Shown piece after piece: positions 1 to 52,850 of a stretch of DNA of 64,000 nucleotides (positions within the stretch are counted from its first letter, which is position 1; each line of letters starts with the position of its first letter). The DNA is taken from IMG/VR virus record IMGVR_UViG_3300027816_000051, positions 124,001-188,000 of that record; one strand, written 5' to 3'. The notes under the pieces were generated by a model. The model was not told the DNA's origin. It searched no databases and saw only the letters and a list, made by a program, of their open reading frames with translations. Source of the stretch: a virus. The position numbers and the translations under genes are program-made.

Positions 1-367
1 GTACCCAGCAAGTGGTACAATTGAGATATGTTCATGTAGTATTCCAAGTGTATTAGGTCCTTATGGTGGGGAGATAACGTATGATGGTGCTTGTGGTGAT
101 TGTTTGTGTACAGACTTTTTTGTTGATATTAATGATTTAACAGCCTCAGATGATAATCAAGTATACTTTGCATACCAATGTTGTGATGGTACATTCACAA
201 CACAAGGTTATAACGCCCCTGGTAATTATAGCGTTTGTCTTATGAGAGTGACAAATGTGTTTATATTGTTTAGAGGAAACTTCGTACCACCAATATATAC
301 TTCGCAATATACATACGGTACTGGTTGTGGTGATTATTGTAACACATTTTGTGGAGAAGCATGTTAA
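1..367 (+). CDS. C-terminal part of a virion surface/tail protein
   Basis: The reading frame is open from base 2 and enters from outside the window, so the TTG at 104 is not a real start. The visible part is Cys-rich and holds the pattern YFAYQCCDGTFTTQ followed by YSVC. The same Y-x-Y-x-x-C-x-G-x-L/F module appears several times in the large gene at 4268, which makes this a member of the same structural family. It ends with closely spaced cysteines (GCGDYCNTFCGEAC). No Pro-Thr linker lies in the visible part. A role on the virion surface is inferred from the neighbours. Confidence 0.6.
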   Translation, partial: YPASGTIEICSCSIPSVLGPYGGEITYDGACGDCLCTDFFVDINDLTASDDNQVYFAYQCCDGTFTTQGYNAPGNYSVCLMRVTNVFILFRGNFVPPIYTSQYTYGTGCGDYCNTFCGEAC

Positions 368-3039: not shown

Positions 3040-3888
3040 ATGGGATTAAATGTTCGTTTATACAATATAATCAATGATGGTACGTACTCAATTAGATACA
3101 AGTCCGGTGATAGCCCGTATCCTGAAACGAACAATTCAACATTTACACTTTACGCAACAGGTTTAACTCTTACAGCTGTTACAATTACAAACTTAAGTTT
3201 TAATACTCAATATTGGGTTAAAATGACAGACGACACTACAGGTCGTTATATAATTAAAAATATTTACACTCACGATAGTAAAGCGTTTCCTTGTTATGAT
3301 ACACTATGTTTTAGTGTTGAGGTACAGTGTGACCCACCAATAAGTCCAACTCCAACACCTACAGTTACAAGAACCCCAACCCCAACACCTACAGTTACAA
3401 AAACACCAACAGTTACCGCTACACCATCTAAGACACCGAACGCTTCAATTACACCAACCCCTACTCCAACAAAAACTCCTGGTTTATCACCAACCCCAAC
3501 AGTTACCAAGACTCCAACTCCTACTCCAACACAAAACACCCCTTCATCATATTGTTTATGGTACAGTATTGAAACGATAGATGAAAATATACAATATGAA
3601 GTTACTTGGACACTAAAAGATAATTTAGGTAGTGTAACAACCGCCACTTCAAATATCCCAATTACTTTTTATAAGGTTAATAGTTCAGGGGTGGTAATTG
3701 CGGTATACACATCACCACAATGGCAAATATTCATTGGTTCATCACAGGATAGTGGAAATATTACACTCAATCCAAGTGCTGGTGAATACTTAGTTGCACA
3801 AACCGGTTTAAGTGGAACCATAACAGACCCTAACTATTGTGGTATTGCATTTATAGATTGTGATTTAAATCCCGATTATTGTAATTAA
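3040..3888 (+). CDS. Pro-Thr-rich tail/surface protein
   Basis: The protein has 282 residues in three parts. An N-terminal domain (about 1-100) contains [16 protein letters not shown] and looks like a fibronectin-III-type beta sandwich. A Pro-Thr linker (about 103-170) reads [15 protein letters not shown] and similar. A C-terminal domain (about 171-282) starts at [20 protein letters not shown]. It follows the 412 gene after a 63-base gap that holds a TATTTAT motif. The shared linker type places it with its neighbours as a virion surface protein; the fold of the first domain is a guess from pattern. Confidence 0.55.
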
Positions 3889-29409: not shown

Positions 29410-29703
29410 ATGGCGAATGAATTACTTCTATTTACACTTGAGGGTTGTGGAGGTTGTAAAAGATTAAAAGAGAGACTCCAAAAAGAATCATTACCTTACC
29501 GAGAAGTTGAAGTTGGTAAGAATAAAGAGATTTGGAATAAAGTAATTGAACAAACGGGTAATGAATATTTACCCGCCTTTTACATTAAAAAAGACGACAC
29601 TGGTAAAGGACCCTTTTTTTGTCCCGAAAAAGATTTTAATGGGGACGACGAGGCGTTAGCAATTATATTAAAATACATTGAAAAAAAAGAAGGGGGTCAA
29701 TAA
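29410..29703 (+). CDS. Glutaredoxin-like protein
   Basis: The 97-residue protein starts LLLFTLEGCGGCKRLKERL with redox Cys C13 and C16 and has the cis-Pro motif EYLPAFYIK. The CGGC site differs from the CPYC of classical glutaredoxin and fits phage NrdH/glutaredoxin-like proteins. The pair with thioredoxin suggests support of deoxynucleotide synthesis. The stop codon lies within the loop of the terminator that follows. Confidence 0.8.
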   Translation: MANELLLFTLEGCGGCKRLKERLQKESLPYREVEVGKNKEIWNKVIEQTGNEYLPAFYIKKDDTGKGPFFCPEKDFNGDDEALAIILKYIEKKEGGQ

Positions 29704-29714
29704 CCCCCTTTTTT
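29690..29714. terminator. Bidirectional terminator between convergent operons
   Basis: AAGGGGGT (29690-29697) pairs with ACCCCCTT (29703-29710) around loop CAATA. T runs follow on both strands. It ends both the redox operon (+) and the glycan operon (-). Confidence 0.88.
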
Positions 29715-30774
29715 ATTTAACTAAACTATTAATCCATTTATAGGTTTTTTCCATTCCATAGAACAGAGGTTCACTAACAACCCAACCTATTTTTTCGTGG
29801 TATAATTTATTGTCTGAATTTCTTCCCCTCACACCAACAGGACATTTATATCCATACTTCTGTTTAAATTCTTCCCCACCAATATTTCTGATATAAATTT
29901 CTTTACCTGAAATATCTATAGCCATTTGAGCCAAATCATTAATTGTTACTTTCTCTTCAGAACCAATGTTTACAGGACCCAAAAAAGAGTCTTGTCTCAT
30001 TAGTCTTAAAACCGCTTCAACACATTCATCCACATATAAGAATGAACGAGTCTGTTGACCATCACCCCAAACTTCAATTTCTCCACCGTCTAACATTTCG
30101 GCAACTTTTCTACACATAGCTGCTGGTGCTTTTTCTTTACCACCTTTCCACGTACCATATGGACCAAATATGTTATGAAATCTAGCAATTCGAACATCCA
30201 AACCGTGATTTCTGTGAAAAGCCAAGTACAACCTTTCCGAAAAAAGTTTTTCCCAACCATATTCTGAATCAGGATTCGCGGGATATGCTGATGATTCTTC
30301 ACAATTTGGGTTGTTAGGGTCTAATTGATTGTGTTCAGGATACATACATGCCGATGATGAATAAAAAATCTTCTTAACTTTTGTCTTCACTGATTCATTT
30401 ACAACATTTAAATTTATCATTGCAGAATTGTGCATAACATTCGCGTCATTTTCACCAGTGAAGATGTAACCAGCACCACCCATATCGGCAGCTAATTGAT
30501 AAACCTCATCAAATGGGACCTCAGTTGAATATGGTTGTTTGTAATAATTAAACGGTAATATCGTACCATTTAATTCTTCTAATCTCATTACTGATGATAC
30601 GTTTTTTGGGTCCGTAAGGTCATATATTAAGAATTCGTCACAAAAGTCTTTCTCATCAAAATATTCGTGTCTTTTTATATCAACTACTCTTACGTAGTTT
30701 CCTTCATTTTTTAATCTTTTTGCTAGGTGACCACCAATAAATCCGCCACCACCCAATACTAATACTCGTTTCAT
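29713..30774 (-). CDS. NAD-dependent sugar epimerase, GDP-mannose 3,5-epimerase-like
   Basis: The 353-residue short-chain dehydrogenase has the Rossmann loop VLGGGGFIGGHLA and the catalytic Y172-x-x-x-K176 in SEYGWEKLF. The later phrases RFHNIFGPYGTWKGGKEKAP, VWGDGQQTRSFLYVDECVEA and GVRGRNSDN are close to plant and bacterial GDP-mannose 3,5-epimerase. That enzyme makes GDP-L-galactose or GDP-gulose from GDP-mannose. The SSxxC segment (SSACMYP) is also kept. It is the last gene of the 15-gene minus-strand operon and overlaps its upstream neighbour by 4 bases. The exact sugar product is inferred from similarity. Confidence 0.8.
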   Translation of the reverse strand: MKRVLVLGGGGFIGGHLAKRLKNEGNYVRVVDIKRHEYFDEKDFCDEFLIYDLTDPKNVSSVMRLEELNGTILPFNYYKQPYSTEVPFDEVYQLAADMGGAGYIFTGENDANVMHNSAMINLNVVNESVKTKVKKIFYSSSACMYPEHNQLDPNNPNCEESSAYPANPDSEYGWEKLFSERLYLAFHRNHGLDVRIARFHNIFGPYGTWKGGKEKAPAAMCRKVAEMLDGGEIEVWGDGQQTRSFLYVDECVEAVLRLMRQDSFLGPVNIGSEEKVTINDLAQMAIDISGKEIYIRNIGGEEFKQKYGYKCPVGVRGRNSDNKLYHEKIGWVVSEPLFYGMEKTYKWINSLVK

Positions 30775-31388
30775 TTTATTTTTTTAAAAAATCCCTCACC
30801 AAAATTATTACCCCACCAAAATTGTTCAACACAGGTAAACCCATGATGTGTCATCCAATTGTTTATTTCATCAAAGTGTGGACAACCTTTATATAATTCG
30901 GCTCTGTTTATTTCTACAATAACGTAGTCAATGTTGATTAATGTATTCACGGAACCTTTGAGAACCTCTAATTCAAAACCTTGAACATCGATATTCATCA
31001 TGTTGTATTTTGAAAAATCGTAATTTAAATCATCCAATCTATCCATTTCAACTTCTTCTACAGAATCAAAAACGATATGAGGAAATTGAACAGAATGTAA
31101 TTTCGGTTCTAATATTGAGGATGACATACCTTTATTAAAGGATTCTACAAACATAGAAACTTTTCTCTTTTCATTACCTAACGCCAGTTTAACTAAAATT
31201 GCGTCATCATCTATTTTTTCTTTTAAGGTCTCAAAATTAGACGATAGAGGTTCAAAGTATATTCTGTTTGAAATACCCAATTCCTTATAAACTTCATCTT
31301 CTTGACCAAAATGTGCACCAACGTGAATCACACCATGGATATTAACATTATGATTAATCATAAATGTCTTTAGCTCTATATTATTCAT
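30771..31388 (-). CDS. FkbM family methyltransferase
   Basis: The 205-residue protein has the AdoMet site GVIHVGAHFGQEDEVYKELG and the second acidic motif IYFEPLSSNFETLK. The FkbM core phrases DRLDDLN, MMNIDVQGFELEVLKGS and YVIVEINRAELYKGC follow. FkbM enzymes O-methylate sugars or polyketides, so here it probably methylates a glycan made by the operon. It ends with the common C-terminal HHGFTCVEQFWWGNNFGEGF. Confidence 0.85.
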   Translation of the reverse strand: MNNIELKTFMINHNVNIHGVIHVGAHFGQEDEVYKELGISNRIYFEPLSSNFETLKEKIDDDAILVKLALGNEKRKVSMFVESFNKGMSSSILEPKLHSVQFPHIVFDSVEEVEMDRLDDLNYDFSKYNMMNIDVQGFELEVLKGSVNTLINIDYVIVEINRAELYKGCPHFDEINNWMTHHGFTCVEQFWWGNNFGEGFFKKIK

Positions 31389-32152
31389 TCTCTATCCTCT
31401 TTATATTTGTCTTTATTATACAATAAATCCCTGTGTTTTTCAAGTATTTTTGCTGCGTTTACGTAAACTAAATTATTATGTAATGATTGATTTTTTTGTC
31501 TAGTGGTCCCCCATCCAGGTTCGGAAATATAATCTATCGTATATAAACCTGACACTTTTCCGAGTTCTTTGAATGCTCTCATGGACATATCCATATCATC
31601 ATAATTTTGGGGTGAAAAATATTCGTCTAAAAAATTTAATTTGACCACGTCATTATAGTTGTACATTAGTGGACCTCTGTTACCATATTCTCTAGCATAA
31701 AAAATATCTCTTGATGAGTTATCTTTATGTGCAATATCGATGTAATTTATTTGTTTTGTTTGTTCATTATAGATGTTATTGTGAGCAACAAAAGATGTTA
31801 CAGCGAACACATCACTATATTTTATGAACGGTTCCAACATCCTCTTATCAAAATCTTTTTCTGTGACAACCATATCATCTTGGATTAAGACCACATAATC
31901 ATTTATAACAGACTTTAGACCAATATTATTTGCTTTGGTTTCAAAAACATTGTCGGCATACAGGTAATCAATTTTTTTATTACTAACTCTCTTTAAATTG
32001 TCACGAACAATACCTTCACTATTATCTGTACAACCATCAAAAACTATTACAATCTGGTCATTCAGTTCTGATAAATTATTTACCAAGTTACTCACCACTT
32101 GGTTCATTAAGAATTCCTTGTTGTGAATTGTCAATACTACTGATGTTTTCAT
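31385..32152 (-). CDS. Family 2-type glycosyltransferase
   Basis: The start at 32152 (MKTSVVLTIHNKEFLMNQVV) overlaps the previous stop by 4 bases and is preferred to 32182. The 255-residue protein has the GT-A nucleotide-sugar fold: VVLTIHNKEF, then IVIVFDGCTDNSE, then the metal motif VVLIQDDMVV. A late NYDDMDMSMRAFKE corresponds to the acceptor-site acid. The sugar donor is unknown. Confidence 0.82.
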   Translation of the reverse strand: MKTSVVLTIHNKEFLMNQVVSNLVNNLSELNDQIVIVFDGCTDNSEGIVRDNLKRVSNKKIDYLYADNVFETKANNIGLKSVINDYVVLIQDDMVVTEKDFDKRMLEPFIKYSDVFAVTSFVAHNNIYNEQTKQINYIDIAHKDNSSRDIFYAREYGNRGPLMYNYNDVVKLNFLDEYFSPQNYDDMDMSMRAFKELGKVSGLYTIDYISEPGWGTTRQKNQSLHNNLVYVNAAKILEKHRDLLYNKDKYKEDRE

Positions 32153-32910
32153 TTTAAAAGATATTTTGATAATTCTATACAATCACCTTTTCTATCAAAC
32201 AGGTGGTCAACATAATTATACGTTTCAATCACGTTATAATTTTCTTTGTGAAAAATCCAATTATTTGCCGTTTGCTCACAACAATGATAAATCTTCGAGT
32301 CTGTATCAGTCACATCTGAAATGTCTACCGATATCATATCTTCCATAATTTTTTTTGCTTGGTGAATATTGTAATCCGCGGGCAACCCAAAAATACCTAA
32401 ATTATAAATTTTAAAATCTAAATCATTTGTAACCTGTTTACATATTTTTATTTCACCCCATCTCGGGTCACCATTCCTAACGATTCTTTCATACTTCCAA
32501 ACCATAATAGAATTATCATCAATTTGTGGTAATTCCGAATGAAAAAATAAATCATTATCGATTTTTACAGTGTACTCAGTTTCTGATTTTGCATAATTAA
32601 TAAAATCATTTAAAACTGTAAAACTATAATTAAGACTTTCATTGTATTTGGTAAGTTGTTCCGTGTAATCAATATAAATAATTCTGTCTTGGTCAATGTT
32701 ATACTTGTTCATTTTTTCTTTCATACCCTCAACATCATCAGTATAAAGATGTAAAATACTTTTTCTATTCTTATCAATAAATGAAGCATAAGATGCTGAT
32801 GAATAATCAGATATAAACTCTTTATTTTTGTAGACATCAAACGCCCATTTCCGACCGATTTGGGACATTTTATTTAAGTCATAATTATAATTTAATGCAA
32901 TAAATTTCAT
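32149..32910 (-). CDS. Putative glycosyltransferase
   Basis: The 253-residue protein has a GT-A-like layout with the acidic D-x-D centre TVKIDNDLFFHSELP at about 115-129 and a later NLGIFGLPADYN. The first strand is unusual (MKFIALNYNYDLNK), so the family is not clear. It lies inside the glycan operon with 4-base overlaps on both sides, which supports a role in the same pathway. Confidence 0.6.
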   Translation of the reverse strand: MKFIALNYNYDLNKMSQIGRKWAFDVYKNKEFISDYSSASYASFIDKNRKSILHLYTDDVEGMKEKMNKYNIDQDRIIYIDYTEQLTKYNESLNYSFTVLNDFINYAKSETEYTVKIDNDLFFHSELPQIDDNSIMVWKYERIVRNGDPRWGEIKICKQVTNDLDFKIYNLGIFGLPADYNIHQAKKIMEDMISVDISDVTDTDSKIYHCCEQTANNWIFHKENYNVIETYNYVDHLFDRKGDCIELSKYLLK

Positions 32911-33581
32911 GGTATATATACGTTGTATTTTATTCTATAATCGAGACAATAATCAAATTTTAAATTATGTTTCACAACCAAGTTAGTTAATATACTTTGG
33001 TCATTTCTATGGAATTGCCAATTTGGAAAATTCTCACCAATTTGATTTGGTTCATTGTCAACTATCTGTTTAATACTACAATACTTAAAATAATCGTGAA
33101 CAAATTCCATCATTTGTTTGGTTTTTTTAATGATGATAAATCCTGCTTCCATCTGTGGTGTTTCATGAAACTTTTCTTCATCACAATCCATCAAGATAAA
33201 ACAGTCTCTTTTTGTACATATTTTTTGAGGCCAACGATTTCCATTCCAATTTGTAAAATAATAATCATTATCTTTCAAATAATTTGCAATCGTATTATAA
33301 TCAACATCAACTAAATCACCGGCATCGGTATAAATTAATGCATCCCCATCTTCTAATTCATTCAAAATATCTAAAATAATTTTTGGTTTCCACAACCAAA
33401 ATCCATCACCCGTTTCACAATCTAATATTTCTTTATGGTTTTCATAAAAAATACCTTTCTTAACATCTTCAGATTTAAATCCTCGGATATCATTGAAACC
33501 ACGTGAATTATAATATCCGATTAATTTTTGAACGGTGTTACTAAATTTATTGTTGGTGTAAAAAGATAGAACAATTTTCAT
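32907..33581 (-). CDS. Glycosyltransferase-like protein
   Basis: The 224-residue protein shows DGFWLWKPKIILDIL, then the metal motif GDALIYTDAGDLVD near 75-88, then QMEAGFIIIKKT and FHRNDQSILTNL. This order is typical of a GT-A family of capsule/LPS sugar transferases with G-Y/F-W-x-W-K-P and H-R-x-D-Q-S motifs. Donor and acceptor are not known. Confidence 0.72.
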   Translation of the reverse strand: MKIVLSFYTNNKFSNTVQKLIGYYNSRGFNDIRGFKSEDVKKGIFYENHKEILDCETGDGFWLWKPKIILDILNELEDGDALIYTDAGDLVDVDYNTIANYLKDNDYYFTNWNGNRWPQKICTKRDCFILMDCDEEKFHETPQMEAGFIIIKKTKQMMEFVHDYFKYCSIKQIVDNEPNQIGENFPNWQFHRNDQSILTNLVVKHNLKFDYCLDYRIKYNVYIP

Positions 33582-33583
33582 TA

Positions 33584-34285
33584 TTAATGTATCCCCCGAA
33601 CATTTACGTTTATTTCATATTCATTTATTAATGGAGAGAGTTCATTAGGGTATTCAGATAAATTCCATTTACCTCTAACTAAAGCCGTTGCTATATATGG
33701 ATAAACAGAACTATCAAAATGATTCAACCCCCTTTTGTTTTCACCATCGTAATGATATAAACCTTTGATGTTGTTTTCTATCATAAAATTTCTATATGTT
33801 TCATTCTCTAACCACATATTATTTTTGGTACCTTTCATGATTTTAATGTAATCATCTTTTTTCCAAATAGTTGGTTGCATAGAAAATATATCTTTATTGT
33901 CGGATTCTATTTCATATAAGGTCTCATAAATTTTTTTATCTTTAACAGACCCCGATTTTAACAATCTAATGAACGAATATTCTTGGTTATCATGTAAAAA
34001 ATCGAGGTAATTAAAAATTTTATCATGACTGACATTGTTATAAAGAATAAAGTCTTCTTGTAAGTATATAAAATAGTCATATGGTATTGAAGATAAACAC
34101 TTTAACCATGATTCATAATAAGGTTCTTGATTTTCATATAAAAAACAAATTTGCTCGGGTATCATTACATCTGTAATAAAATACATCGGTAAGTTTGTGT
34201 ACTTTTTTTGTTCTAACAAGAACATATCCAAAATATCTGAACATTTTGAATTTGTATAAGTAACGTAACAAATTTTATTATCCAT
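33584..34285 (-). CDS. Putative glycosyltransferase
   Basis: The 233-residue protein has PYDYFIYLQEDFILYNNVS at about 68-86, a GT-A metal motif of the Y-x-L-Q-E-D type, followed by SFIRLLKSGS and FSMQPTIWKKDDYI. Family members act in surface polysaccharide synthesis. It overlaps the following FkbM gene by 8 bases in the direction of transcription. Confidence 0.65.
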   Translation of the reverse strand: MDNKICYVTYTNSKCSDILDMFLLEQKKYTNLPMYFITDVMIPEQICFLYENQEPYYESWLKCLSSIPYDYFIYLQEDFILYNNVSHDKIFNYLDFLHDNQEYSFIRLLKSGSVKDKKIYETLYEIESDNKDIFSMQPTIWKKDDYIKIMKGTKNNMWLENETYRNFMIENNIKGLYHYDGENKRGLNHFDSSVYPYIATALVRGKWNLSEYPNELSPLINEYEINVNVRGIH

Positions 34286-35012
34286 AAGGTGTTAAATTTT
34301 TGTTGATATAAACCACATCCATTTCTGTGTTTGAAGATTCTGGCGACTCGTCTATTGGTATAAACCTATTTAGTTTTTCATCTAGTTCAGATTTACTTGT
34401 AGAACCACGATATAATTCCTGTAACCCTACTTCGGTGGTTATTATTTTTACATCATTTAAATATTCTTTTAGAGAGTCTAATACGATATTTTCTGCACCT
34501 TGAACATCCATCCAAATCAAATCAACACTTTTAATATCATTTTCTTTTAACCAATCACTAAGAACAATACAGTCAACCTCAGTTTCCTTTTGGGCCCACT
34601 GAGATGAACGCCAGTGGTTTGTTGTCTGTAATAAAGAACTGGCACCCACATTTCCATTATAAACTTCGTAAAATTTAGTTTTACCGTTGTAATTGTTTAT
34701 TGCGTATTGGTAAACTTTTATGTTATTAATTTTCTCAACGTTCTTAACTGTAAATTCGTAGTTTTCTTTTACTGGTTCAAACGCATATATTTTAGCATGT
34801 GGAAACCATCTATTTAACTCTAAACTTTGGCAACCATCTCTTGACCCAATATCTAATATTGTGTTGACATCATTAAAGTCAATTTTATCTTTTATAACAT
34901 TAATCATTTTTGTTGTCCATAATGGACATCTACCATTCAAATCGGTAAAGGCACCCCTATTTAATTCATCTTGAGTAAATGCGTCGTCAATAAATTTTGA
35001 ATTATCTATCAT
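34278..35012 (-). CDS. FkbM family methyltransferase (second copy)
   Basis: The 244-residue protein has the AdoMet motif TILDIGSRDGCQSLEL, KIYAFEPVKENYEFT, the FkbM core DLIWMDVQGAENIVLDSLKE and TEVGLQELYRGS. It differs clearly from the FkbM protein at 30771, with a longer N-terminus and other spacing, so the operon probably methylates two different positions or sugars. Confidence 0.85.
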   Translation of the reverse strand: MIDNSKFIDDAFTQDELNRGAFTDLNGRCPLWTTKMINVIKDKIDFNDVNTILDIGSRDGCQSLELNRWFPHAKIYAFEPVKENYEFTVKNVEKINNIKVYQYAINNYNGKTKFYEVYNGNVGASSLLQTTNHWRSSQWAQKETEVDCIVLSDWLKENDIKSVDLIWMDVQGAENIVLDSLKEYLNDVKIITTEVGLQELYRGSTSKSELDEKLNRFIPIDESPESSNTEMDVVYINKNLTPYG

Positions 35013-35023
35013 TTTTATAATTT

Positions 35024-35614
35024 TTAAATCACCACCATACTATAACATGGTGCGTCTTTATATGTGGACAAATTAATATTTCGTTTTAACCAAAAAATTT
35101 CATTATCATTACTTAATTCGCCACCCATAAAGTTTATATTTTTATAGTTAAGTGATATTATATTTTCCGTGATTATTTTTTCCGAATACTCATCGTGTAT
35201 GGTAGATACATTCCAAATATCAAACACCGTATCTATTTCACCCTCCACAAAATAATCAACAAAATATTTTCCTTCATTATGCCAAGTCAAAAAATTTACA
35301 CACTCTTTTTTAAATGTGGAAACTAATCTATTTGCATTAGATGGTAGTAAATCACTTCTCCATTTAAGGACTCTGTTGTAACCTATTTCTTTGGCTTTCA
35401 TTATTCCATTCAAAGTTGATATTTTTTGTAGTGCTATATTTTGTACACCCCTATCGTGTGGAATACTGTTGAATAAGACAACATCATTAGTATCGTATTT
35501 TGATTCTTCACCTTGCCATGTTGACCAAATCAAATCATAACCAGTCCAAGCGTTTTTTAATTCTTTAACGTAGTCTGAAGGTCCTTGTACTATGACACAA
35601 AAATCATTATTCAT
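35024..35614 (-). CDS. WavE-like glycan synthesis protein
   Basis: The 196-residue protein starts CVIVQGPSDYVKEL and continues with LIWSTWQGEE, DRGVQNIALQKISTLNGIMK and NRVLKWRSDLLPSNANR. This is the pattern of the WavE family named from Vibrio LPS core synthesis, whose members are likely glycosyltransferases. The K-x-R-x-D motif is the probable metal or donor site. The assignment is by motif order only. Confidence 0.62.
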   Translation of the reverse strand: MNNDFCVIVQGPSDYVKELKNAWTGYDLIWSTWQGEESKYDTNDVVLFNSIPHDRGVQNIALQKISTLNGIMKAKEIGYNRVLKWRSDLLPSNANRLVSTFKKECVNFLTWHNEGKYFVDYFVEGEIDTVFDIWNVSTIHDEYSEKIITENIISLNYKNINFMGGELSNDNEIFWLKRNINLSTYKDAPCYSMVVI

Positions 35615-35620
35615 ACTGAA

Positions 35621-36340
35621 TTAAAATTTTGATATGTGATTATGATATTGTGACCCTTCATACATGTATGGTCTAGTTATTTTATTATGTATGAATACAT
35701 CTAATGCGGAACCAAAATCAATATAAGTGTTATTACTATTATTTGTAAACATATGTTTTATGATAACAGCAGATGTTGGTCCACAACATACGATAAATAA
35801 AGTATCTTTATATTTTGAAGAAACATTGTATATTTTTTCTAAAAACGAATCTCTATGTTCTTCCCAATAGTTTACACAATCATTAGGGAACGGTACAAAT
35901 TCTGATACACTAAATGGTATGTTTTTTAAATCACAATTTTCATTACAAATTAAAACAACATCTCGATTTATATTTCTTATTCTTGATATATTTTCTTTGT
36001 AATTTGCGTTAATCCATAGGTTAGCAAATGTAATGTTTGATTTATTTTGTATTCTATCATATAAAAAATTATAGTCTCTAATACTATCAGTTTTGGAGGA
36101 TATTGCAAAATAAAAATTTGGGTCGTTCAACCCTATACATTCATTTAAATCCACACCTAATTTGGTTTGTCCCCCACTCGAAAACCATTTATCGTTTTGA
36201 TACGCTTGTGTATTCTTTTCTATCGGTGAATTATTCATTAACATCACTTCACCATCGGCATATCTAACAAAAGAAAAGTTAGTTCGACTATCTATCTTTT
36301 CCCAAAACGAATTAAAATCTTCAATATACTTTTCAATCAT
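35621..36340 (-). CDS. GT-D-type glycosyltransferase
   Basis: The 239-residue protein has the GT-D signature: FSFVRYADGEVMLM with the metal D-G-E near 27-30, and IVCCGPTSAVIIKHMF then YIDFGSALDVFI near 183-213. GT-D enzymes were first described on streptococcal adhesins as sugar transferases acting on Ser-rich repeat glycoproteins. That is suggestive here, since the phage has Thr-rich repeat proteins. Motifs are seen; the acceptor is inferred. Confidence 0.68.
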   Translation of the reverse strand: MIEKYIEDFNSFWEKIDSRTNFSFVRYADGEVMLMNNSPIEKNTQAYQNDKWFSSGGQTKLGVDLNECIGLNDPNFYFAISSKTDSIRDYNFLYDRIQNKSNITFANLWINANYKENISRIRNINRDVVLICNENCDLKNIPFSVSEFVPFPNDCVNYWEEHRDSFLEKIYNVSSKYKDTLFIVCCGPTSAVIIKHMFTNNSNNTYIDFGSALDVFIHNKITRPYMYEGSQYHNHISKF

Positions 36341-37061
36341 TTAATATTGTCTTAAATCCTTTATTTACATACCCACGGTAAACTTCACCCATTAAATTCA
36401 TATTTGAATGATTTACGGAAATTGCGTTGGAATCAGTTCCATGTTCCCATGCATATTCTGGTATACTACCCCACATTTCTCTATTTTCTTTAGGATGGGG
36501 AGGAACGTAAGTTCCGATATTTGCGTATTTCTGTAATGTATATGAAAAGTGCATATCCTCACCAACTAATTTACTCTGATTGATTTCAGGTAATTCTCTC
36601 CAAAATATCGATAACCATTCTCTTTTAAAGAACCACGAGTGACCAACAATGTCGACCTTTTCAATTTCTTCGTTAGGTTGGTCCCAACCGACTCTTGTTG
36701 CTGGCCAATAAGAGTTTTTTGTGTGAAATTTTACACCGATAGTTCCTAATAAACCTTCTTGAATTTTCATGGTGTTTAGACAGTTTTCTAACCATAGTTT
36801 ACCCGGTATTGTGTCATCATCAAAAACACAAATATATTCTGTGTTGGCATTTAAAGCAAATGCAAATCTTGCCCACACACCTAAATTACTATTACAAGAT
36901 GCGTGAATTAAATCTTTGGTTAGTCCCTCATCAAATTGAGAACCAGAATTTTGCCAAAATAAAATTGATTCGGGTTGGACACTTTGATTTCTAATTGATT
37001 CCAATTGTTTTTGGAGAACATGTGGTCTTTTATACCCATTTAATATTACCGTTATACTCAT
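36333..37061 (-). CDS. Family 2-type glycosyltransferase
   Basis: The 242-residue protein has ITVILNGYKRPHVLQKQLES, the metal motif YICVFDDDTIPGKLWLEN near 78-95, and GHSWFFKREWL with VGEDMHFSYTLQKY as the catalytic acid region. It is a soluble GT-A enzyme with no membrane segment. It overlaps the WecB-like gene by 4 bases. Confidence 0.82.
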   Translation of the reverse strand: MSITVILNGYKRPHVLQKQLESIRNQSVQPESILFWQNSGSQFDEGLTKDLIHASCNSNLGVWARFAFALNANTEYICVFDDDTIPGKLWLENCLNTMKIQEGLLGTIGVKFHTKNSYWPATRVGWDQPNEEIEKVDIVGHSWFFKREWLSIFWRELPEINQSKLVGEDMHFSYTLQKYANIGTYVPPHPKENREMWGSIPEYAWEHGTDSNAISVNHSNMNLMGEVYRGYVNKGFKTILND

Positions 37062-38050
37062 ACAATTTTTCTAAATATTTCAATGATTCTTTCACAAGAA
37101 TTACCATCACCAAAAGGACAATCATATTCTGTTTGGAAATCGTTAATAATATCGTAAAAAATACCTTCTAAGTCAATGGGTTTTTTACATATAAAAGACG
37201 TTTTACCCAAGGACTCAGGTCTCTCAGTTTTTTCTCTACATACAATAACTTTCTTATTTAGGAACGACGCCTCTTCTTGAACACCCCCACTATCTGAAAT
37301 TAGTAATTTACAGGATTTGAATTCCTCAATAAATTTATCATGGGTTAATGGTTCAATAACATCAACATGTGTCAATATATGTTTGTGTTTTATGACGTTT
37401 GGGTTTGGGTGTATTGGAAGAATGAATTTTAATTCAGGATTATTCTTTGCTAATCGATTGATAACATCAAACCACTCCGACATCATCTCATGATTCTCTC
37501 TTCTATGTAAAGTGATTAAGACTTTATTTTCGTATGTAATATTTTCTTTATTAAGATTATCTAATACGGTATTGCCAACTACAAAATTTTTACCCTGAAC
37601 TTTTTCATTTTCTAAGTTCATCTTGTTACTTTCTGTTGGGCAAAGATTATAGTTTGAAATTCTACTAATTAACTGCCGATACATTTCTTCGGGGTAAGGG
37701 TGATTGTAGTCATATGTCCGTAATCCCGCTTCTAAATGAATCACTTCTTTTTTATGGTGTAATCCTATTAGGGATAATGAAAGAGCGGTTGCGGTGTCCC
37801 CTTGGATAAGTATATGTGTAACCCCTTCCAAAAATTCTTTTTTAAAATTTAAAAATACGGATGACATAATACTATCCAATCTATTTTCACACGTATCATC
37901 AATGGATAATTTATAATCAAAATCACCCAATACAATATCTTTGTGTTGGGTAACATATAAAATTTTATGGGGAATACTTTCCCCACACATTTCTATTAAT
38001 TTTTTTATTTTAATATACTCAGGTCTTGTGCCGTAACAAAATAATATCAT
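37058..38050 (-). CDS. wecB: UDP-N-acetylglucosamine 2-epimerase
   Basis: The 330-residue GT-B-fold protein has the family landmarks FCYGTRPEYIKI, HILIQGDTATALS, IHLEAGLRTYDYNHPYPEE with PEEMYRQLIS, VGNTVLDNL, VLITLHRREN and ISDSGGVQEEASFLNKKVI. It converts UDP-GlcNAc to UDP-ManNAc, an activated amino sugar for surface glycans. It is slightly shorter than bacterial WecB (about 375 residues), mainly through short loops, with the catalytic acids in place. Confidence 0.88.
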   Translation of the reverse strand: MILFCYGTRPEYIKIKKLIEMCGESIPHKILYVTQHKDIVLGDFDYKLSIDDTCENRLDSIMSSVFLNFKKEFLEGVTHILIQGDTATALSLSLIGLHHKKEVIHLEAGLRTYDYNHPYPEEMYRQLISRISNYNLCPTESNKMNLENEKVQGKNFVVGNTVLDNLNKENITYENKVLITLHRRENHEMMSEWFDVINRLAKNNPELKFILPIHPNPNVIKHKHILTHVDVIEPLTHDKFIEEFKSCKLLISDSGGVQEEASFLNKKVIVCREKTERPESLGKTSFICKKPIDLEGIFYDIINDFQTEYDCPFGDGNSCERIIEIFRKIV

Positions 38051-38868
38051 ATATAAGTTGAAATGATTTCTAAATTTTTTAAAGTGTTAGTTTCTAAGAA
38101 ATCAATTAATTCATCACCTGATAACCTATTAAACCATTCTTCTAAACTTGCACCATAATTTTGTGTCGTTATTACTTCCAAACCTAAACATTTTGCCTCA
38201 ACAACCAGTCTACAAAAAGTTTCTCTTGCTATCGGGAAAAACACAATACCTTTACATTTGGCCATATTACTTAAAAATTCAACTCTGTCTTTAGATTCTT
38301 TAAGAATATGGACCGGTAATTTATTTTCAGAACAATACTTCAGACTACCTTGGGTGTTCTTTATCCAATTATTTGTATAGTAAACAGAATATTTGTCGTT
38401 TTTAACATTGTTGGATTTATTTAAATTCCTCAATAATTCTAAGTCCTCATTTGACCATATCGAACTATTCAGATTTATAAAATTAGCAACAACATCGTTT
38501 TTAAGATAAACGTTCATGTGGTCGGTTGTTTGAACAAATACCGCTTTTGCATTCCGGTAAAGAGAATAGTTGGTTCTTTCCTCAATCGGAATTATGTTGT
38601 CGGTATATCTCCATGGGTGTCTACTTGCACATATTTTATAATCGTTTTCAATAATGACGTAGTTCAAATTTTGTATTTGATTAACCAAGTTTGGGTTCAT
38701 CAAAGAAATATTTGATATAATATACAGGGCGTTGTAATCAAATGACTTGACTTGGTTTGAATATTCAAACTCAAGATTAAATCTATCAATTAAAACTTGA
38801 TTCACCCATTCAGAACCACCGTGAGGTACTTCTTTAATGGTAAAATCCGATATAAGTATTTTCCTCAT
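38047..38868 (-). CDS. GT-B (family 4-like) glycosyltransferase
   Basis: The 273-residue protein has an N-terminal Rossmann half with HGGSEWVNQVLIDRF and a donor-binding half. The latter reads GIVFFPIARETFCRLVVEAK, then CLGLEVITTQNYGA, equivalent to the E-x7-E region of family 4 enzymes. It is short for the family, and the last helix is reduced. It probably adds one sugar in the operon pathway. Confidence 0.72.
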   Translation of the reverse strand: MRKILISDFTIKEVPHGGSEWVNQVLIDRFNLEFEYSNQVKSFDYNALYIISNISLMNPNLVNQIQNLNYVIIENDYKICASRHPWRYTDNIIPIEERTNYSLYRNAKAVFVQTTDHMNVYLKNDVVANFINLNSSIWSNEDLELLRNLNKSNNVKNDKYSVYYTNNWIKNTQGSLKYCSENKLPVHILKESKDRVEFLSNMAKCKGIVFFPIARETFCRLVVEAKCLGLEVITTQNYGASLEEWFNRLSGDELIDFLETNTLKNLEIISTYI

Positions 38869-39587
38869 ATAACTTGATAATTTTCTTTTAACATGCTGTC
38901 CATGTAATTGAATGGTAAATTAAAATAATGTTCACCGAATTTATGTTGTTTATTGAACGATGACAATCTCTTTGCTCTTGAAATGTAAATGTTCTTCACG
39001 TAGTCTTTACCCAAGAATTTATAGTGAAGAAGTTTTATTTCCCGCTCATCCGAAAATTTACCATCAACAGAATTAAAACTGTGACCACCAATGCCGTATT
39101 TTATATCTAAATCAGGATGAAAAATTATATTTTTACACATTGGTTCATACGTTTGTGAACCTGTTTTAATTTTTGTTGTAATGAATTCACCGTCGTATAT
39201 TGGAAATTCAGTACTAACCATGTCGTGACCGTCTATTCTTGGGACGGTTATACCCATTTCTTTGTACTCTTGAAGTTTATCCATAAGATTTTCATGGTAT
39301 ATAAACTCATCACAGTCACAAACTATAACCCAATCAACACCCTGACCTCTACTTCTTTTTTTATACTCTTCGGATTTAATGTTTACGTAATTAATTTCAT
39401 TTATTTCATTACCACTATCCCATTTAATAACCTCAACTTTTGGGTACCTCTTATAAATCTCATCAGAGGAGTCCGTTGACATATTATCGTATATGAATAT
39501 TTTTTCACAGATTGTACTATAGTAATCCAATGTGAATGGTAATATTTTTTCTTCATTCCATGACAGTATATGTGCGTGTATCTTCAT
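38865..39587 (-). CDS. Family 2-like glycosyltransferase
   Basis: The 240-residue protein has AHILSWNEEKILPFTLDYY, FIYDNMSTDSSDEI and the metal motif WVIVCDCDEFIYHENLM near 84-100. IKLLHYKFLGKDYV follows at the C-terminus. This is the usual set of the Glyco_tranf_2_4 group. The donor is unknown. Confidence 0.8.
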   Translation of the reverse strand: MKIHAHILSWNEEKILPFTLDYYSTICEKIFIYDNMSTDSSDEIYKRYPKVEVIKWDSGNEINEINYVNIKSEEYKKRSRGQGVDWVIVCDCDEFIYHENLMDKLQEYKEMGITVPRIDGHDMVSTEFPIYDGEFITTKIKTGSQTYEPMCKNIIFHPDLDIKYGIGGHSFNSVDGKFSDEREIKLLHYKFLGKDYVKNIYISRAKRLSSFNKQHKFGEHYFNLPFNYMDSMLKENYQVI

Positions 39588-39588
39588 T

Positions 39589-40368
39589 TTAAAATATGTT
39601 TTTCCAAAGTGTTAATATCTCTTCGTTACTTAATTTAGAAACTTCATTCATAGTCTCTTCATTACCATAAAACTCTGTACCGGTTAAATAACATTCATCT
39701 TTAACCAAACAAGCAACCTCACCCTTTGATGAGTGATATACCTTACCAATCATATCGTACATTTCTTGTTTATTGGTGGTGTGACCGTAATGAATTACTC
39801 TTGGATTCATTAAAGGTTTTACCAATTTGTCAAAATAGTTTTGGTCACCGATGTGACCGAACAAATAGATTTTTTCACACCTGTCTTTTAATGCTCTTTG
39901 TATTGACACATGGGTCTGTTTTCTGTCTTCAATTGTACCAATAATTCCTGCAATATTTCTTACCAGCTCTTTATTTGAAATAATTAAATTTTCTTTGATG
40001 TTTGGTATTATTACATAATCACCCCTGTAATCCGAGTGATATTTTCGATGCTCTTCATGTAAAAACACGCACAGGTCCCAATACTGTTTAATTTTACCAA
40101 CAGGGAACCACCATTTTTCATGACAAGACAAAATAACTTTTTTAACAGGTGGTCTTTCCTGTAGTTGTAAAAAATGGGTAATTACAATATCATCAGATTC
40201 ATACTTTAAATCTTTTTCAATGTTCCCTGATTTACATTTGTCTAAATGGTAATTCTGATTACCGTAAAATGTGCAATCAATACCATTTTCATTTAAGAAA
40301 TTTGTTAAGTTTATAAAAAAAGTGGTAGAACCACCTTTTTCTGTAAATCCCGATACAATTTTTATCAT
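39589..40368 (-). CDS. GT-B-like glycosyltransferase
   Basis: The 259-residue protein starts MIKIVSGFTEKGGSTTFFIN, a glycine-rich acceptor loop. It then has VILSCHEKWWFPV, GIIGTIEDRKQTHVSIQRAL and KIYLFGHIGDQNYFDKLV. The C-terminal ALVRE-type motif is replaced by VACLVKDECYLTGTEFYGNE. It is a probable sugar transferase of the same operon; the family assignment is approximate. Confidence 0.65.
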   Translation of the reverse strand: MIKIVSGFTEKGGSTTFFINLTNFLNENGIDCTFYGNQNYHLDKCKSGNIEKDLKYESDDIVITHFLQLQERPPVKKVILSCHEKWWFPVGKIKQYWDLCVFLHEEHRKYHSDYRGDYVIIPNIKENLIISNKELVRNIAGIIGTIEDRKQTHVSIQRALKDRCEKIYLFGHIGDQNYFDKLVKPLMNPRVIHYGHTTNKQEMYDMIGKVYHSSKGEVACLVKDECYLTGTEFYGNEETMNEVSKLSNEEILTLWKNIF

Positions 40369-41822
40369 CTTAATTGTTTGATATTTTTTCTAATTTCAGG
40401 TGAGTTTATGTACTGACCTAAGACTTGTTTTAATTCAACATCAACCTTTTCAAATTTTGATGCCATATCAATCATTACCACACTGTTTGTGTCAATGAAT
40501 GTTTTACGTTTTTTAAGTAAAGTTTTCAACGCAAAATCTAAGTTATAAATTGATGTTTCTAAATTAATATCAAACCAATCAATCATTTTTAAATTTGTAG
40601 ATGTAGTGGCAAAAAAGTCACTAATACTACCAAAATTGTTTGGAAAGTGTCCGTGTAAAATATTGAAAAAAGATGATTTGTTTTTAAAAATTAAATTGAA
40701 CTGTTCGTTGTTTTGAACTATATCCAATCCATTTGAAAAAATTGTTCGGTCGTTTTCTAATACTGTAGGAAAGACGCACCCAAAAGTATTTTTTTCACTC
40801 TTAAATATTGAATACATACTTGAGAAAACGTCGTTCAATACGGTAACAGTATCATTACTGAAAAATAACAAATCTGTTTTTGATTCCATAAACGATTCAT
40901 CCCATTTCAGTACTGATAAGTTTTTATTTAATGTATCAAAAAAACCCTCGTAAATTTTAATATTTTCAGATTCAAATTCTCTAATATTGTCTATATTGGT
41001 ATCCGTCGAGATGAGTGAAATCTGTAAACTATCAAACACTGGTAATTTTTTTATGTTTTCAAAAAACTGAATTAAATTTTCATTATCGTTTGATGTTTGA
41101 ACTATTAAATTAAATTTATCTTTAAACTGTTTTGGTTTGGTTATGTCATAATCAATTTTTGGTGTTATATTAATTGGTAGGTTCTCTTTAAATTTTTCAA
41201 TGTAAAATTCCCTATTCTTTTCCCAAGAATCATTGGTCATTCCGATTGATTTGTGAGTGATTCTTATGTTGTATATAACACCGATGTTTACCTCACTTAA
41301 GTGATTGCTAGTACAGAATACCATATCATAAAAATGAAAACCCGGTACTGACTCATCAAAAGTGTGTTTTATTCTGTTTTTGTGGATTCCAATGAATAAA
41401 CCATCCACTAAACAAACTTCGTGAATTGAATTTGGGATTCCATTTGCATATCTCGATTCCCATTTTTTACCCTCATTTTCATGATTAACAATACCAACCA
41501 TTTTGGTATTATCTGTCCACCACCTACCACTCTCATGAATATTGGTTGTACCGGCAACACCGAGAATCCCGTAGTCAGATTCTTCAAAATGTTTGACTAA
41601 TTTTCTACCCCACGAAGTCGTATTAAAGTAAATGTCATCATGACAAAGTACGACAATATCATGAATCGACTCTTGAATAATTTCATTGTAAGTTTGTGAA
41701 AGACTTTTTTCACCATTGTTTACTTTTTCAATAACTTGAACTTTGGGGTGTCCACAAGTTTTTTTTAAATATTCTTGAAATTTTGGGTTGGACTCTCTTG
41801 TACTGTAACCTATTGTAATCAT
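40365..41822 (-). CDS. Glycosyltransferase with C-terminal second GT-like domain
   Basis: The 485-residue protein is the first gene of the operon. Residues about 1-220 form a GT-A domain (LSQTYNEIIQESIHDIVVLC, then HDDIYFNT, then GLFIGIHKNRIKHTFDES). Residues about 235-470 look like a second, weaker family 2 domain (FNLIVQTSNDNENLIQFFEN, TDLLFFSNDTVTVLNDVFSS). Two linked domains suggest a polymerising or bifunctional enzyme. The upstream region contains an AATATTTTAAAAC promoter-like stretch on the minus strand. Confidence 0.75.
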   Translation of the reverse strand: MITIGYSTRESNPKFQEYLKKTCGHPKVQVIEKVNNGEKSLSQTYNEIIQESIHDIVVLCHDDIYFNTTSWGRKLVKHFEESDYGILGVAGTTNIHESGRWWTDNTKMVGIVNHENEGKKWESRYANGIPNSIHEVCLVDGLFIGIHKNRIKHTFDESVPGFHFYDMVFCTSNHLSEVNIGVIYNIRITHKSIGMTNDSWEKNREFYIEKFKENLPINITPKIDYDITKPKQFKDKFNLIVQTSNDNENLIQFFENIKKLPVFDSLQISLISTDTNIDNIREFESENIKIYEGFFDTLNKNLSVLKWDESFMESKTDLLFFSNDTVTVLNDVFSSMYSIFKSEKNTFGCVFPTVLENDRTIFSNGLDIVQNNEQFNLIFKNKSSFFNILHGHFPNNFGSISDFFATTSTNLKMIDWFDINLETSIYNLDFALKTLLKKRKTFIDTNSVVMIDMASKFEKVDVELKQVLGQYINSPEIRKNIKQLR

Positions 41823-41871: not shown

Positions 41872-42072
41872 TTAAAATTTGGAACCGTTTGGTGCAAGAC
41901 CGTTGTGATTATCAATTTGTTTTCTAAAATCTTCTCTAGTGTTATATAGGTCAAGAGCTCGGTTTACTAATTTTTGTAGATTGATTGAACCATCTACACT
42001 TTTTATCTTAAATCTTTTATAAACATCATCTATGATGTTAACGCTGGTTAGTTTTGTTTGTTGTTTAGGCAT
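41872..42072 (-). CDS. Small ribbon-helix-helix-like protein
   Basis: The start at 42072 (MPKQQTKLTSVNIIDDVYKR) gives 66 residues; the reading from 42111 adds an unlikely hydrophobic leader. A beta strand followed by two helices (VNIIDDVYKRFKIKS, INLQKLVNRALDLYN) fits a ribbon-helix-helix DNA-binding protein. It sits just upstream of the glycan operon and could regulate it. Confidence 0.55.
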   Translation of the reverse strand: MPKQQTKLTSVNIIDDVYKRFKIKSVDGSINLQKLVNRALDLYNTREDFRKQIDNHNGLAPNGSKF

Positions 42073-42148
42073 AATATAAGTATATAAATTTATATATATT
42101 ATAAAAGACAAAAAATATCGGACAATTTATTAGACTGTCCGATACAAT

Positions 42149-46713: not shown

Positions 46714-47317
46714 ATTAATATATCAAAAAAAATCTGACGAACTTATTAACAGTGTCGAAGGATGGTTTATTGTTTCTGAAGATTCATCAAAGAATTTTGA
46801 AGCATCAAAAGAAACTTTAGAAAAAATAAAAAGCGGAAAATATGATGTAAAAGACGGTGATGAAGTCGAGTATGTTTTAAAAACAAATTGTCAAGTAATG
46901 TACGATGATATTTTTCATAGTACAATTGCTGACATCATAATAACGCAAAAAATGGTTAGTCGGGTTTTTCTGATTGATATTGATGGGACAATTTGTGACG
47001 ACATTAAAAATGAAGATTCACATCTTTATCCGACAGCTAACCATTACCCAAACGCGTTGGGTATCATCAACAAATGGTACGATGAGGGAAATGTAATTAC
47101 ATTTTTTACCGCTCGTGAAAGTAAAGACCGTGAAGTAACCGAAACATGGTTAAAAGAAAAAGGTTTTAAATATCACGGATTGGTTATGGACAAACCAAGA
47201 ATCAAAGATGACCAAGAATATGTGTGGATTGATAATAGAAAAGTCAGAGCGATTACGTATCTTGGAACGTGGTCTGAATTAAAAGAAGTAGACGCAAAAA
47301 TTCAAACATTTGAGTAA
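46703..47317 (+). CDS. HAD-superfamily phosphatase with N-terminal extra domain
   Basis: The 204-residue protein has a short N-terminal domain (about 1-88, KSDELINSVEGWFIVSEDSS). The HAD core starts at RVFLIDIDGTICDD. Motif II is ITFFTARES, the lysine region is KPRIKDD and the late acid motif is YVWIDNRKVRAI. It probably dephosphorylates a small metabolite or nucleotide. It is directly followed by thymidylate synthase, sharing one base, so a nucleotide role is plausible. Confidence 0.75.
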   Translation: MKGKLIYQKKSDELINSVEGWFIVSEDSSKNFEASKETLEKIKSGKYDVKDGDEVEYVLKTNCQVMYDDIFHSTIADIIITQKMVSRVFLIDIDGTICDDIKNEDSHLYPTANHYPNALGIINKWYDEGNVITFFTARESKDREVTETWLKEKGFKYHGLVMDKPRIKDDQEYVWIDNRKVRAITYLGTWSELKEVDAKIQTFE

Positions 47318-48642
47318 TGAACAAATTAGATAAACAATACACAGACTTACTCCAAACTATTATAGATTATGGGGTAGAAAAGAAAGACCGTACAGGTACA
47401 GGAACCAAATCTATTTTTGGTTATACAATCCGTCATAAAATGTCCGATGGGTTTCCATTACTTACAACCAAGAAAATGGCGTGGAAGACGATGGTAACCG
47501 AATTGTTATGGTTCCTTCGTGGTGATACAAACATCAAGTTCCTTGTTGATAACAATTGTCATATTTGGGATGGTGATGCGTATAAGAACTATCTAATTGA
47601 AGATGCCAAAATCTTACCTAATATGTCAAAAGAAAAAATGTTAGAGTTAGGATTTCGATTAACAAAAGAAGAATTCATCAACAAAATAAAAACCGATGAT
47701 GAGTTTGCTAAGAAGTGGGGTGACCTCGGACCTGTGTATGGTAAGCAATGGAGAAGATGGGGTAGAAAGAATGTGACTAATTACGACTTAAAGGATGTAA
47801 AAGGTTCTGACCAACACAGAGTACTAAAAGCAATTGAAATCGGTGAAGATGTTACCAAGTATGGTGTCAAAATAGAATACCAAAACAATTCAATAGACCA
47901 AATCACAAACCTAATCAACGACCTTAAAACAAATCCAGACTCAAGACGATTAATGGTCAATGCTTGGAATGTTGGAGAGCTGGACCAAATGGTTCTTCCA
48001 CCTTGTCATTATGGATTTCAAGTTTATACGAGAGAGTTGAGTTTAGATGAAAGGATTAATTATTATAACTCAACAAAAGACCCTTTAAATCAAAGTAGTG
48101 ATTATCACGATGTTCACATGGATAGTTTAAGAGTTCCTAAACGAGCAATCTCTTTAATGTGGAATCAACGCTCAGTAGACACATTCTTAGGTCTACCATT
48201 CAATATTGCTTCTTACGGTTTGTTACTTGAGATTATTGCTAAAGAAGTAAATATGGTACCTGATGAGTTGATTGGTAATTTAGGTGATACTCATTTGTAT
48301 AGTAACCATGTTGAACAAGCAAGAGAACAAATCGGTAGAAAGTATACACATGAAGAGAGAGAAGGTATGTTAAAAGAGGCGATGGGTCCTAATGGTTATA
48401 AAAGTGCGTTGAAAGACTTAGCACCATTTGGTGGAGGTATGTCTGAATATTATGAGATATATAAAATACCACGATACACAAGAGAACCTTATAAATTACC
48501 CAAACTAAAACATATGAAGACCGATGAATTTTATAAATCATTATCTGAAGACTCATCTTTAATAACTCATTTGGAAAATAAGGATTTTCAAATCGAAAAT
48601 TATCAATCACACCCATCGATTAAAGCACCCTTAAGTAATTAA
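47317..48642 (+). CDS. thyA: Thymidylate synthase with long insertions
   Basis: ThyA motifs are present: DRTGTGTKSIFGYTIRH, FPLLTTKK, ELLWFLRGDTNIKFL, LGPVYGKQWRRWG, the nucleophile Cys C230 in LPPCHYGFQVY, then MWNQRSVDTFLGLPFNIASY and GDTHLYSNHVEQ. The enzyme makes dTMP from dUMP. At 441 residues it is far longer than the usual 264-315. An insert lies before the LGPVYG motif, another of about 30 residues lies between the active-site Cys region and MWNQRS, and a C-terminal tail of about 100 residues follows. The tail is not recognised and could be a regulatory or docking part. Confidence 0.9.
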   Translation: MNKLDKQYTDLLQTIIDYGVEKKDRTGTGTKSIFGYTIRHKMSDGFPLLTTKKMAWKTMVTELLWFLRGDTNIKFLVDNNCHIWDGDAYKNYLIEDAKILPNMSKEKMLELGFRLTKEEFINKIKTDDEFAKKWGDLGPVYGKQWRRWGRKNVTNYDLKDVKGSDQHRVLKAIEIGEDVTKYGVKIEYQNNSIDQITNLINDLKTNPDSRRLMVNAWNVGELDQMVLPPCHYGFQVYTRELSLDERINYYNSTKDPLNQSSDYHDVHMDSLRVPKRAISLMWNQRSVDTFLGLPFNIASYGLLLEIIAKEVNMVPDELIGNLGDTHLYSNHVEQAREQIGRKYTHEEREGMLKEAMGPNGYKSALKDLAPFGGGMSEYYEIYKIPRYTREPYKLPKLKHMKTDEFYKSLSEDSSLITHLENKDFQIENYQSHPSIKAPLSN

Positions 48643-52829: not shown

Positions 52830-52850
52830 TACTACATAATTAAATTTAGT

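Follow-up and report, generated by a model that had tools for sequence, protein, structure and literature searches.

A glycan operon with constant ends and its possible mucin-like protein acceptors in a putative T4-like jumbo phage

Introduction

The window analysed here is a 64,000-nucleotide stretch of DNA from a giant freshwater phage (bases 124001-188000 of the 288,260-bp virus record IMGVR_UViG_3300027816_000051) with a minus-strand operon of 15 genes at positions 29713-41822, several of them for sugar synthesis and transfer, which raises the question of what a phage would decorate with these enzymes. Positions are those of the window unless they are given as record positions. The initial annotation had proposed virion proteins or DNA as the target. 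Outside the operon, the record also encodes very long Thr-Pro-rich proteins and a second sugar cluster with a family of polypeptide N-acetylglucosamine (GlcNAc)-transferases, PF11397. These findings favour phage protein as the target, and DNA gained no support. We consider it somewhat probable that the operon and the second cluster build O-linked glycans on the phage's own Thr-Pro-rich, mucin-like proteins, which we regard as putative fibres.

Operon architecture and gene content

The 15 open reading frames (ORFs) are numbered from g01 (29713) to g15 (40365-41822), g15 being transcribed first and g01 last. Their tight packing was confirmed, with junctions of -4, -4, -34, -4, +2, -8, +11, +6, -8, -4, -4, -4, +1 and -4 bp, of which the -34 hinges on a TTG start. 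The operon supplies 15 of the 19 minus-strand ORFs of at least 100 amino acids that the ORF picker kept in the window. Twelve IMG/VR contigs carry 20,990 bp around g11 at 100% identity, and the operon block is therefore no assembly accident. A scan with the single protein g11 gave nothing beyond identical copies of the present phage. The features of the operon are as follows.

29690..29710, both strands: bidirectional terminator-like hairpin with a T tail, closing the operon (sequence scan of both strands)
29713..30774, minus: g01, GDP-mannose 3,5-epimerase (GME); Pfam Epimerase 1e-40, PDB GME chains 1.3e-87, 53-58% identity to the listed marine cyanophage GMEs
30771..31388, minus: g02, FkbM methyltransferase; Pfam 1.3e-16
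31385..32182, minus: g03, GT2 glycosyltransferase (GT); Pfam 1.9e-12, above cut-off
32149..32910, minus: g04, possible GT-A-like transferase; weak fold support, no Pfam match
32907..33581, minus: g05, no assigned function; no meaningful Pfam match
33584..34285, minus: g06, no assigned function; no Pfam match
34278..35012, minus: g07, FkbM methyltransferase; Pfam 1e-19
35024..35614, minus: g08, no assigned function; no Pfam match
35621..36340, minus: g09, GT-D-like; Pfam 1.2e-4, 21.9 of 27 bits, below cut-off
36333..37061, minus: g10, GT2; Pfam 1e-6, above cut-off
37058..38050, minus: g11, UDP-GlcNAc 2-epimerase; Pfam 4e-60, PDB E 1e-43
38047..38868, minus: g12, possible GT-B, weak; Glycos_transf_1 0.0025, below cut-off
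38865..39587, minus: g13, GT2; Glyco_tranf_2_4 3e-15, above cut-off
39589..40368, minus: g14, GT-B with a GT4-like fold; AlphaFold pLDDT (predicted local distance difference test) 72, Foldseek E 7e-8 to BshA, then PimA
40365..41822, minus: g15, GT (Glyco_tranf_2_5); Pfam 3e-24

The two epimerases, the two FkbM methyltransferases and the bidirectional terminator were all recovered as initially annotated. A Cys and a Lys of g01 align with residues that we take to be catalytic in plant GME. The earlier count of about eleven GTs in at least five fold families stands in part. Five are well supported (g03, g10, g13 and g15 by Pfam, g14 by its predicted fold) and the evidence for three more (g09, g12 and g04) is suggestive, whereas g05, g06 and g08 drew no GT support from Pfam, either singly or through homologues; a full set of eleven is possible. 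Pfam searches of 20 homologues of the six unassigned or weak proteins gave at best Glycos_transf_1, in three of the 20 (0.0025), together with ten further families that were weak and mixed. The proposed WavE-like and W-K-P/H-R-x-D-Q-S GT types found no Pfam or PHROG match. In g04, D118-N119-D120 is invariant in five sequences; the top Foldseek match of its model (pLDDT 68) is a GT8 protein (E 2.5e-3), and the 50 matches listed are mostly of GT-A type at E 2.5e-3 or worse. As had been noted, no flippase, polymerase or lipid-sugar initiating family occurs among the Pfam matches of the 15 operon proteins, the rest of the record not having been searched for these.

A small ribbon-helix-helix-like gene (41872-42111; 0.0066, below cut-off) lies directly upstream of the operon on the same strand and is a possible regulator.

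Constant end genes and a variable interior

A viral scan with five GME sequences returned at least 569 stretches, the best 80 of which were taken as GME loci. Profiles of g01-g15 were run on these and on four cyanophage loci, some loci being near-identical. The g15 family was found in 23 loci. The interior families g03-g06 and g08-g14 were rarer, at 2 to 8 loci apiece when the present phage's own locus (L032) is counted. Counts were also made in 46 hand-picked records (41 of the 80 GME loci, the four cyanophages and the present record, with duplicates and mostly short contigs left out), many of which are fragments and related: g15 is present in 23, two of them from the present phage, and is usually the 5' end gene of the island, the g01 family usually being the 3' end gene. 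One relative (L045) lacks g03 and g05 but keeps the other 13 genes, which are 47-75% identical and stand in a rearranged order. A tblastn search of g09 and g15 against the phage collection gave no match.

The flanks of the island are also conserved. PhoH lies downstream of GME in 21 of the 23 g15 loci (at most two ORFs away in 19) and dUTPase lies upstream of g15 in 16, at most three ORFs away, several others starting at g15. The typical order in relatives is dUTPase, g15, a shuffled interior, GME and PhoH. In the present genome, no more than 26 bp separate PhoH from dUTPase (record 44671/44698), the island being found about 109 kb from this site. These comparisons are most simply read as a locus with conserved end genes (g15 and GME) and an exchangeable interior, which would have moved elsewhere in this lineage.

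Mucin-like proteins as candidate acceptors

The record encodes the following Thr-rich proteins.

Record 107949-124367 (C-terminal end at window 2..367), plus: giant Thr-rich mucin-like protein, 5,472 amino acids
412..2976, plus: mucin-like Thr/Pro protein, 854 amino acids, proposed acceptor
3040..3888, plus: mucin-like protein, 282 amino acids
4268..7189, plus: mucin-like protein, 973 amino acids, 27% Thr
Record 52194-53120: Thr-rich protein
Record 61770-64304 (L005:3270-5804): Thr-Pro stalk with a DUF5122 beta-propeller, just before a putative tail-sheath gene (read from its N-terminus)

The giant protein consists of 45.2% Thr, 20.0% Pro and 14.5% Asn, with strict x-T alternation over 86.4%, x being chiefly P, N or V; mean Thr per ORF is 6.3% in an ORF set that holds the giant gene only as a 2,357-amino-acid piece. 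Thr is encoded by a mixture of codons (1.80 of 2 bits), the residue being kept while third bases vary. The pattern TPTxTPT occurs 595 times in the present record and 592, 595, 595, 592, 594, 584, 585 and 585 times in other assemblies of the same phage; four further contigs with 112, 285, 112 and 0 occurrences were taken as cut. Collagen repeats were not found. A Skp1-like hydroxyproline route was considered and rejected, the one prolyl hydroxylase family tried (PF13640) having no match in the present record.

In a close relative (L138, G002), neighbouring proteins are mostly 83-98% identical to those of the present phage, and the larger Thr-rich ones align in short stretches at 37-84%. This contrast is read as rapid repeat turnover in the Thr-rich proteins.

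A second sugar cluster with PF11397 enzymes

The second sugar cluster (record 265375-281748) includes two PF11397 polypeptide GlcNAc-transferase genes (record 265375-267907, one of them at 265375-266631; 3e-72 and 7e-48). We take PF11397 to be family GT60. A PDB sequence search with the PF11397 protein found nothing at 0.01. The cluster also encodes a HAD protein with a weak nucleotidyltransferase match, a nucleotidyltransferase, TylF-type and weaker methyltransferase-like proteins, a TylF-HtrL-GT2 fusion and several proteins without a match. Its ORF at record 276544-277455 matches the g06 profile (1.5e-10). The island of L045 contains homologues of two second-cluster genes (61% and 55% identity), which ties the two clusters together. 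GT60 enzymes form GlcNAc-alpha-Thr on the mucins of Trypanosoma cruzi (PMC9472816).

A RuBisCO large-chain-like protein (PF00016, 1e-31) is encoded within the second cluster at record 272967-274196 (L013:7967-9196).

Association of PF11397 and g15 with Thr-Pro proteins

A viral scan with PF11397 confirmed at least 575 loci, of which 80 were kept. After anchors at least 95% identical were dropped, 68 of these and 71 of the 80 GME loci were compared, a mucin-like ORF being defined by 60% S+T+P over 50 residues. Such an ORF lies at most six genes away at 33 of the 68 PF11397 loci. Mucin-like neighbours made up 55 of 735 at PF11397 loci, 51 of them Thr-dominated, versus 1 of 778 at GME loci (Fisher 6e-17, kinship ignored). 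At 13 of the PF11397 loci a mucin-like ORF stands directly upstream, always on the same strand (13/13), 12 being of Thr-Pro type and one Gly/Ser-rich. At G020, G023, G024 and G031 (G021 repeats the gene set of G020), PF11397 comes immediately after a block of genes that encode Thr-Pro domains; these blocks, which have no family match, are taken for fibres.

Co-occurrence was also counted across the 46 records. PF11397 and TPTxTPT occurred together in 9, PF11397 alone in 0, the pattern alone in 10 and neither in 27 (Fisher 8e-5; 4e-4 without near-duplicates). For g15 and TPTxTPT, both occurred in 17, g15 alone in 6, the pattern alone in 2 and neither in 21 (Fisher 6e-6; 2e-5 without near-duplicates). 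Because the phages are related, these p-values overstate the significance. The backward pattern, used as a control across the GME-locus and cyanophage records, matched once (G028).

PF11397 in isolated phages

PF11397 protein matches at 1e-5 in the phage collection were confined to XacN1 (a Xanthomonas phage), RAS14 and CM1, which carry 34, 27 and 27 Ser/Thr-Pro sites, respectively. Among 14 comparison phages without a PF11397 match, a non-random set of ten chosen from matches to the major capsid protein (MCP) and the four cyanophages, 12 had no such site, and two of 484 and 595 kb had two each. The backward control gave one site in XacN1 and one in each of these two comparison phages. RAS14 and CM1 resemble one species.

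In XacN1, ORF334 is the PF11397 gene, and a 3,313-amino-acid ORF beside an annotated baseplate wedge gene bears a Ser/Thr-Pro linker. Glycoproteins have been reported for this phage, along with the GTs ORF328 and ORF334. XacN1, which belongs to another lineage, is the nearest approach to experimental support for our reading.

A proposed glycosylation route and the alternatives

The cassette operon, the mucin-like proteins and the putative initiating GT together suggest a phage that makes its own sugar-coated fibres. A PF11397 enzyme of the second cluster would attach the initial sugar to Thr. Soluble GTs encoded by the operon would then lengthen the glycan with sugars that may include the GME product (of L-galactose or L-gulose type) and N-acetylmannosamine from UDP-GlcNAc 2-epimerase, and FkbM and TylF-type enzymes would methylate the outer residues. 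With constant end genes (g15 and GME) and a swappable interior, related phages could exchange the type of glycan.

Several observations weigh against this route. PF11397 lies outside the operon, and the operon does not adjoin the mucin-like genes in the present genome. The upstream position is not exclusive, mucin-like ORFs also making up 8 of 59 neighbours at -4 and 8 of 59 at +6. The GME control loci are not fibre regions, and the adjacency of PF11397 and Thr-Pro genes may come from shared fibre regions. Thr-Pro proteins occur without PF11397 in nine records besides a fragment of the present phage, one of them of 261 kb, and a six-sequence PF11397 profile, run without a positive control, found none in 13 records, nine of which have the Thr-Pro pattern. 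Conversely, g15 occurs without the pattern in six records, two of 108 and 158 kb. The pattern is absent from all four cyanophages with GME clusters, and such clusters can therefore serve another target. A bacterial PF11397 scan, with 80 of 190 loci kept and 72 matched by the profile, showed mucin-like neighbours at 19 of the 72 loci (20 of 668 neighbours), so the pairing may not be phage-specific and part of the link may be general. Some of these bacterial contigs (L237-L316) may be viral.

Other points concern the proteins themselves. Of three other assemblies, one has the giant ORF in identical form and two have a frame change near residue 4,200. The label of fibre comes from neighbouring genes and our own reading of them, and a Pfam scan of one Thr-rich putative fibre gene gave no match. 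For XacN1, the excerpted report states that no tail fibres were observed and does not name the glycoproteins.

The main rival is that the operon alters the surface of the infected host (lipopolysaccharide (LPS) core, O-chain or capsule) and blocks the adsorption of competing phages, which we regard as rather unlikely, if a serious alternative. Bacterial surface glycans likewise draw on GME and UDP-GlcNAc 2-epimerase, the hypervariable interior resembles that of O-antigen loci, and the Thr-Pro pattern is missing from 6 of the 23 g15 records. Similar clusters were read as host-surface modification in jumbo phages (Iyer et al., PMC7824862) and in pelagimyophages (PMC7029224), and those of cyanophages were termed LPS clusters with their function left open (PMC3037559). 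However, host-surface modification does not predict the co-occurrence with Thr-Pro proteins in 17 of the 23 g15 records. A host capsule or O-antigen locus would also have Wzx/Wzy or ABC export together with an initiating lipid-sugar transferase, none of which is among the Pfam matches of the operon. The initial annotation had argued from the missing flippase to a soluble target; this argument is weak, because LPS core and lipid-linked precursors are also acted on by cytosolic GTs, which may use host export.

It is improbable that other virion proteins, in the capsid, tail tube or sheath, are the target of the cluster instead and that the Thr-rich proteins are bare stalks. Mycobacteriophage capsid and tail tube glycans, cited in PMC12619734, give this alternative a precedent, but PF11397 adjoins Thr-Pro genes far more often than does the GME control. 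Passively acquired filler is very improbable: Sullivan et al. name 'stuffer DNA' as a possibility for cyanophage clusters (PMC3037559), whereas here 15 overlapping ORFs are intact, PhoH follows GME in nearly all g15 loci, and L045 retains most of the genes at appreciable identity. DNA glycosylation against restriction, known in T-even phages, is the least probable of all, even with a gene of the thymidylate synthase family (which resembles dCMP hydroxymethylases) at 47317-48642, as two nucleoside diphosphate-sugar epimerases and two FkbM enzymes would be unusual for that purpose; the T4 DNA glucosyltransferase family PF09198 had no match in a scan whose positive control also matched nowhere.

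Phage lineage, host and neighbouring genes

Terminase, portal, major head, polymerase, primase and helicase families were found in the record and fit a T4-like (T4-superfamily) jumbo phage. Relatives of its MCP among the matches listed include Rhodothermus phage RM378, Flavobacterium phage immuto, huge uncultured phages and Microcystis phage Mel-JY01. The aquatic jumbo phages called moraphages, a likely lineage for the present phage, resemble it in size, T4-like core genes and several core GT groups, and a Rhodothermus phage was placed outside their clade in the published MCP tree (PMC12619734). MaAM05 (MW495066.1, L027), a g11 match named as a Microcystis phage, has smc, uvrA, topA and psbU in 41 kb and was set aside as cyanobacterial chromosome.

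A Shine-Dalgarno motif precedes none of the 56 window ORFs of at least 150 amino acids; the frequency in shuffles is 0.8%, so this absence reflects non-use, not avoidance. TTG-N17-22-TAnnTTTG occurs 93 times, versus 47 in base shuffles, and TAnnTTTG occurs in 39 of 285 upstream regions versus 17.9 expected. Lack of Shine-Dalgarno motifs together with such sequences is a Bacteroidota signature, and the host is read as a member of that phylum. The T4 late promoter TATAAATA was found in 15 of the 285 upstream regions, versus 10.2 shuffled, and before neither the operon nor the giant gene; one copy precedes the gene at record 50818, whose relatives bear Thr-Pro domains.

The operon is flanked by a thioredoxin-like gene (read from its WCGPC motif) and a DNA methylase. 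The thymidylate synthase at 47317-48642 (441 amino acids) has an insert of about 110 extra residues within its matched domain.

Relation to known systems and significance

The operon alone is a further example of a described type of cluster. 'Undescribed system' is too strong a term for it, because papers on T4-like cyanophages and on other jumbo phages (PMC3037559, PMC7824862) already describe comparable clusters, in which genes for sugar-nucleotide enzymes, methyltransferases and GTs likewise lie side by side. In cyanophages S-SSM7, S-SCSM2R, Sf-CH8 and S-SM2, GME opens a sugar cluster. Unlike the present phage, the four cyanophages examined have neither Thr-Pro patterns nor PF11397; the MCP relatives of the present phage lie elsewhere, and cyanophage clusters lie near hli genes and tRNAs, whereas the present operon does not (no tRNA was found in the window).

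Parallels exist for the combination of enzyme and putative acceptor. The mucin-type O-glycosylation of T. cruzi and Dictyostelium by GT60 likewise pairs a PF11397-family enzyme with encoded Thr/Pro-rich putative acceptors, but it operates in the eukaryotic Golgi or cytosol, whereas the phage system is known from genes alone. XacN1 shares the PF11397 gene and Ser/Thr-Pro stretches, the latter in a short linker rather than over thousands of residues. Chlorovirus PBCV-1 and mycobacteriophages use their own GTs for their own structural proteins, as the present phage would if our reading holds; we know of no mucin-like acceptor or PF11397 enzyme in those systems.

What is new is that giant mucin-like proteins, a family of polypeptide GlcNAc-transferases and switchable cassettes for glycans occur jointly and in adjacency in jumbo phages. 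No description of phage mucins or of GT60 in phages was found in the open-licence literature searched, which does not show their absence from print. We tentatively suggest, as a possibility short of an even chance, that several jumbo-phage lineages have a phage-encoded mucin system, in which a dedicated polypeptide GlcNAc-transferase would act on Thr-Pro 'phage mucins' reaching about 5,500 residues, type-switching glycan cassettes would cap them, and each phage would thereby gain a strain-specific coat or hair of sugar. By our estimate, a phage mucin of about 5,500 residues would, if extended, exceed 1 micrometre.

In 2010, the role of cyanophage sugar clusters was left open between functional genes and 'stuffer DNA' (PMC3037559). 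The pairing of PF11397 with Thr-Pro proteins provides a concrete candidate acceptor and first enzyme, which can be tested in isolated phages. If the proposed route is true, a chemistry familiar from protists would give phages mucin-like coats, with consequences for their adsorption, host range, shielding and diversification.

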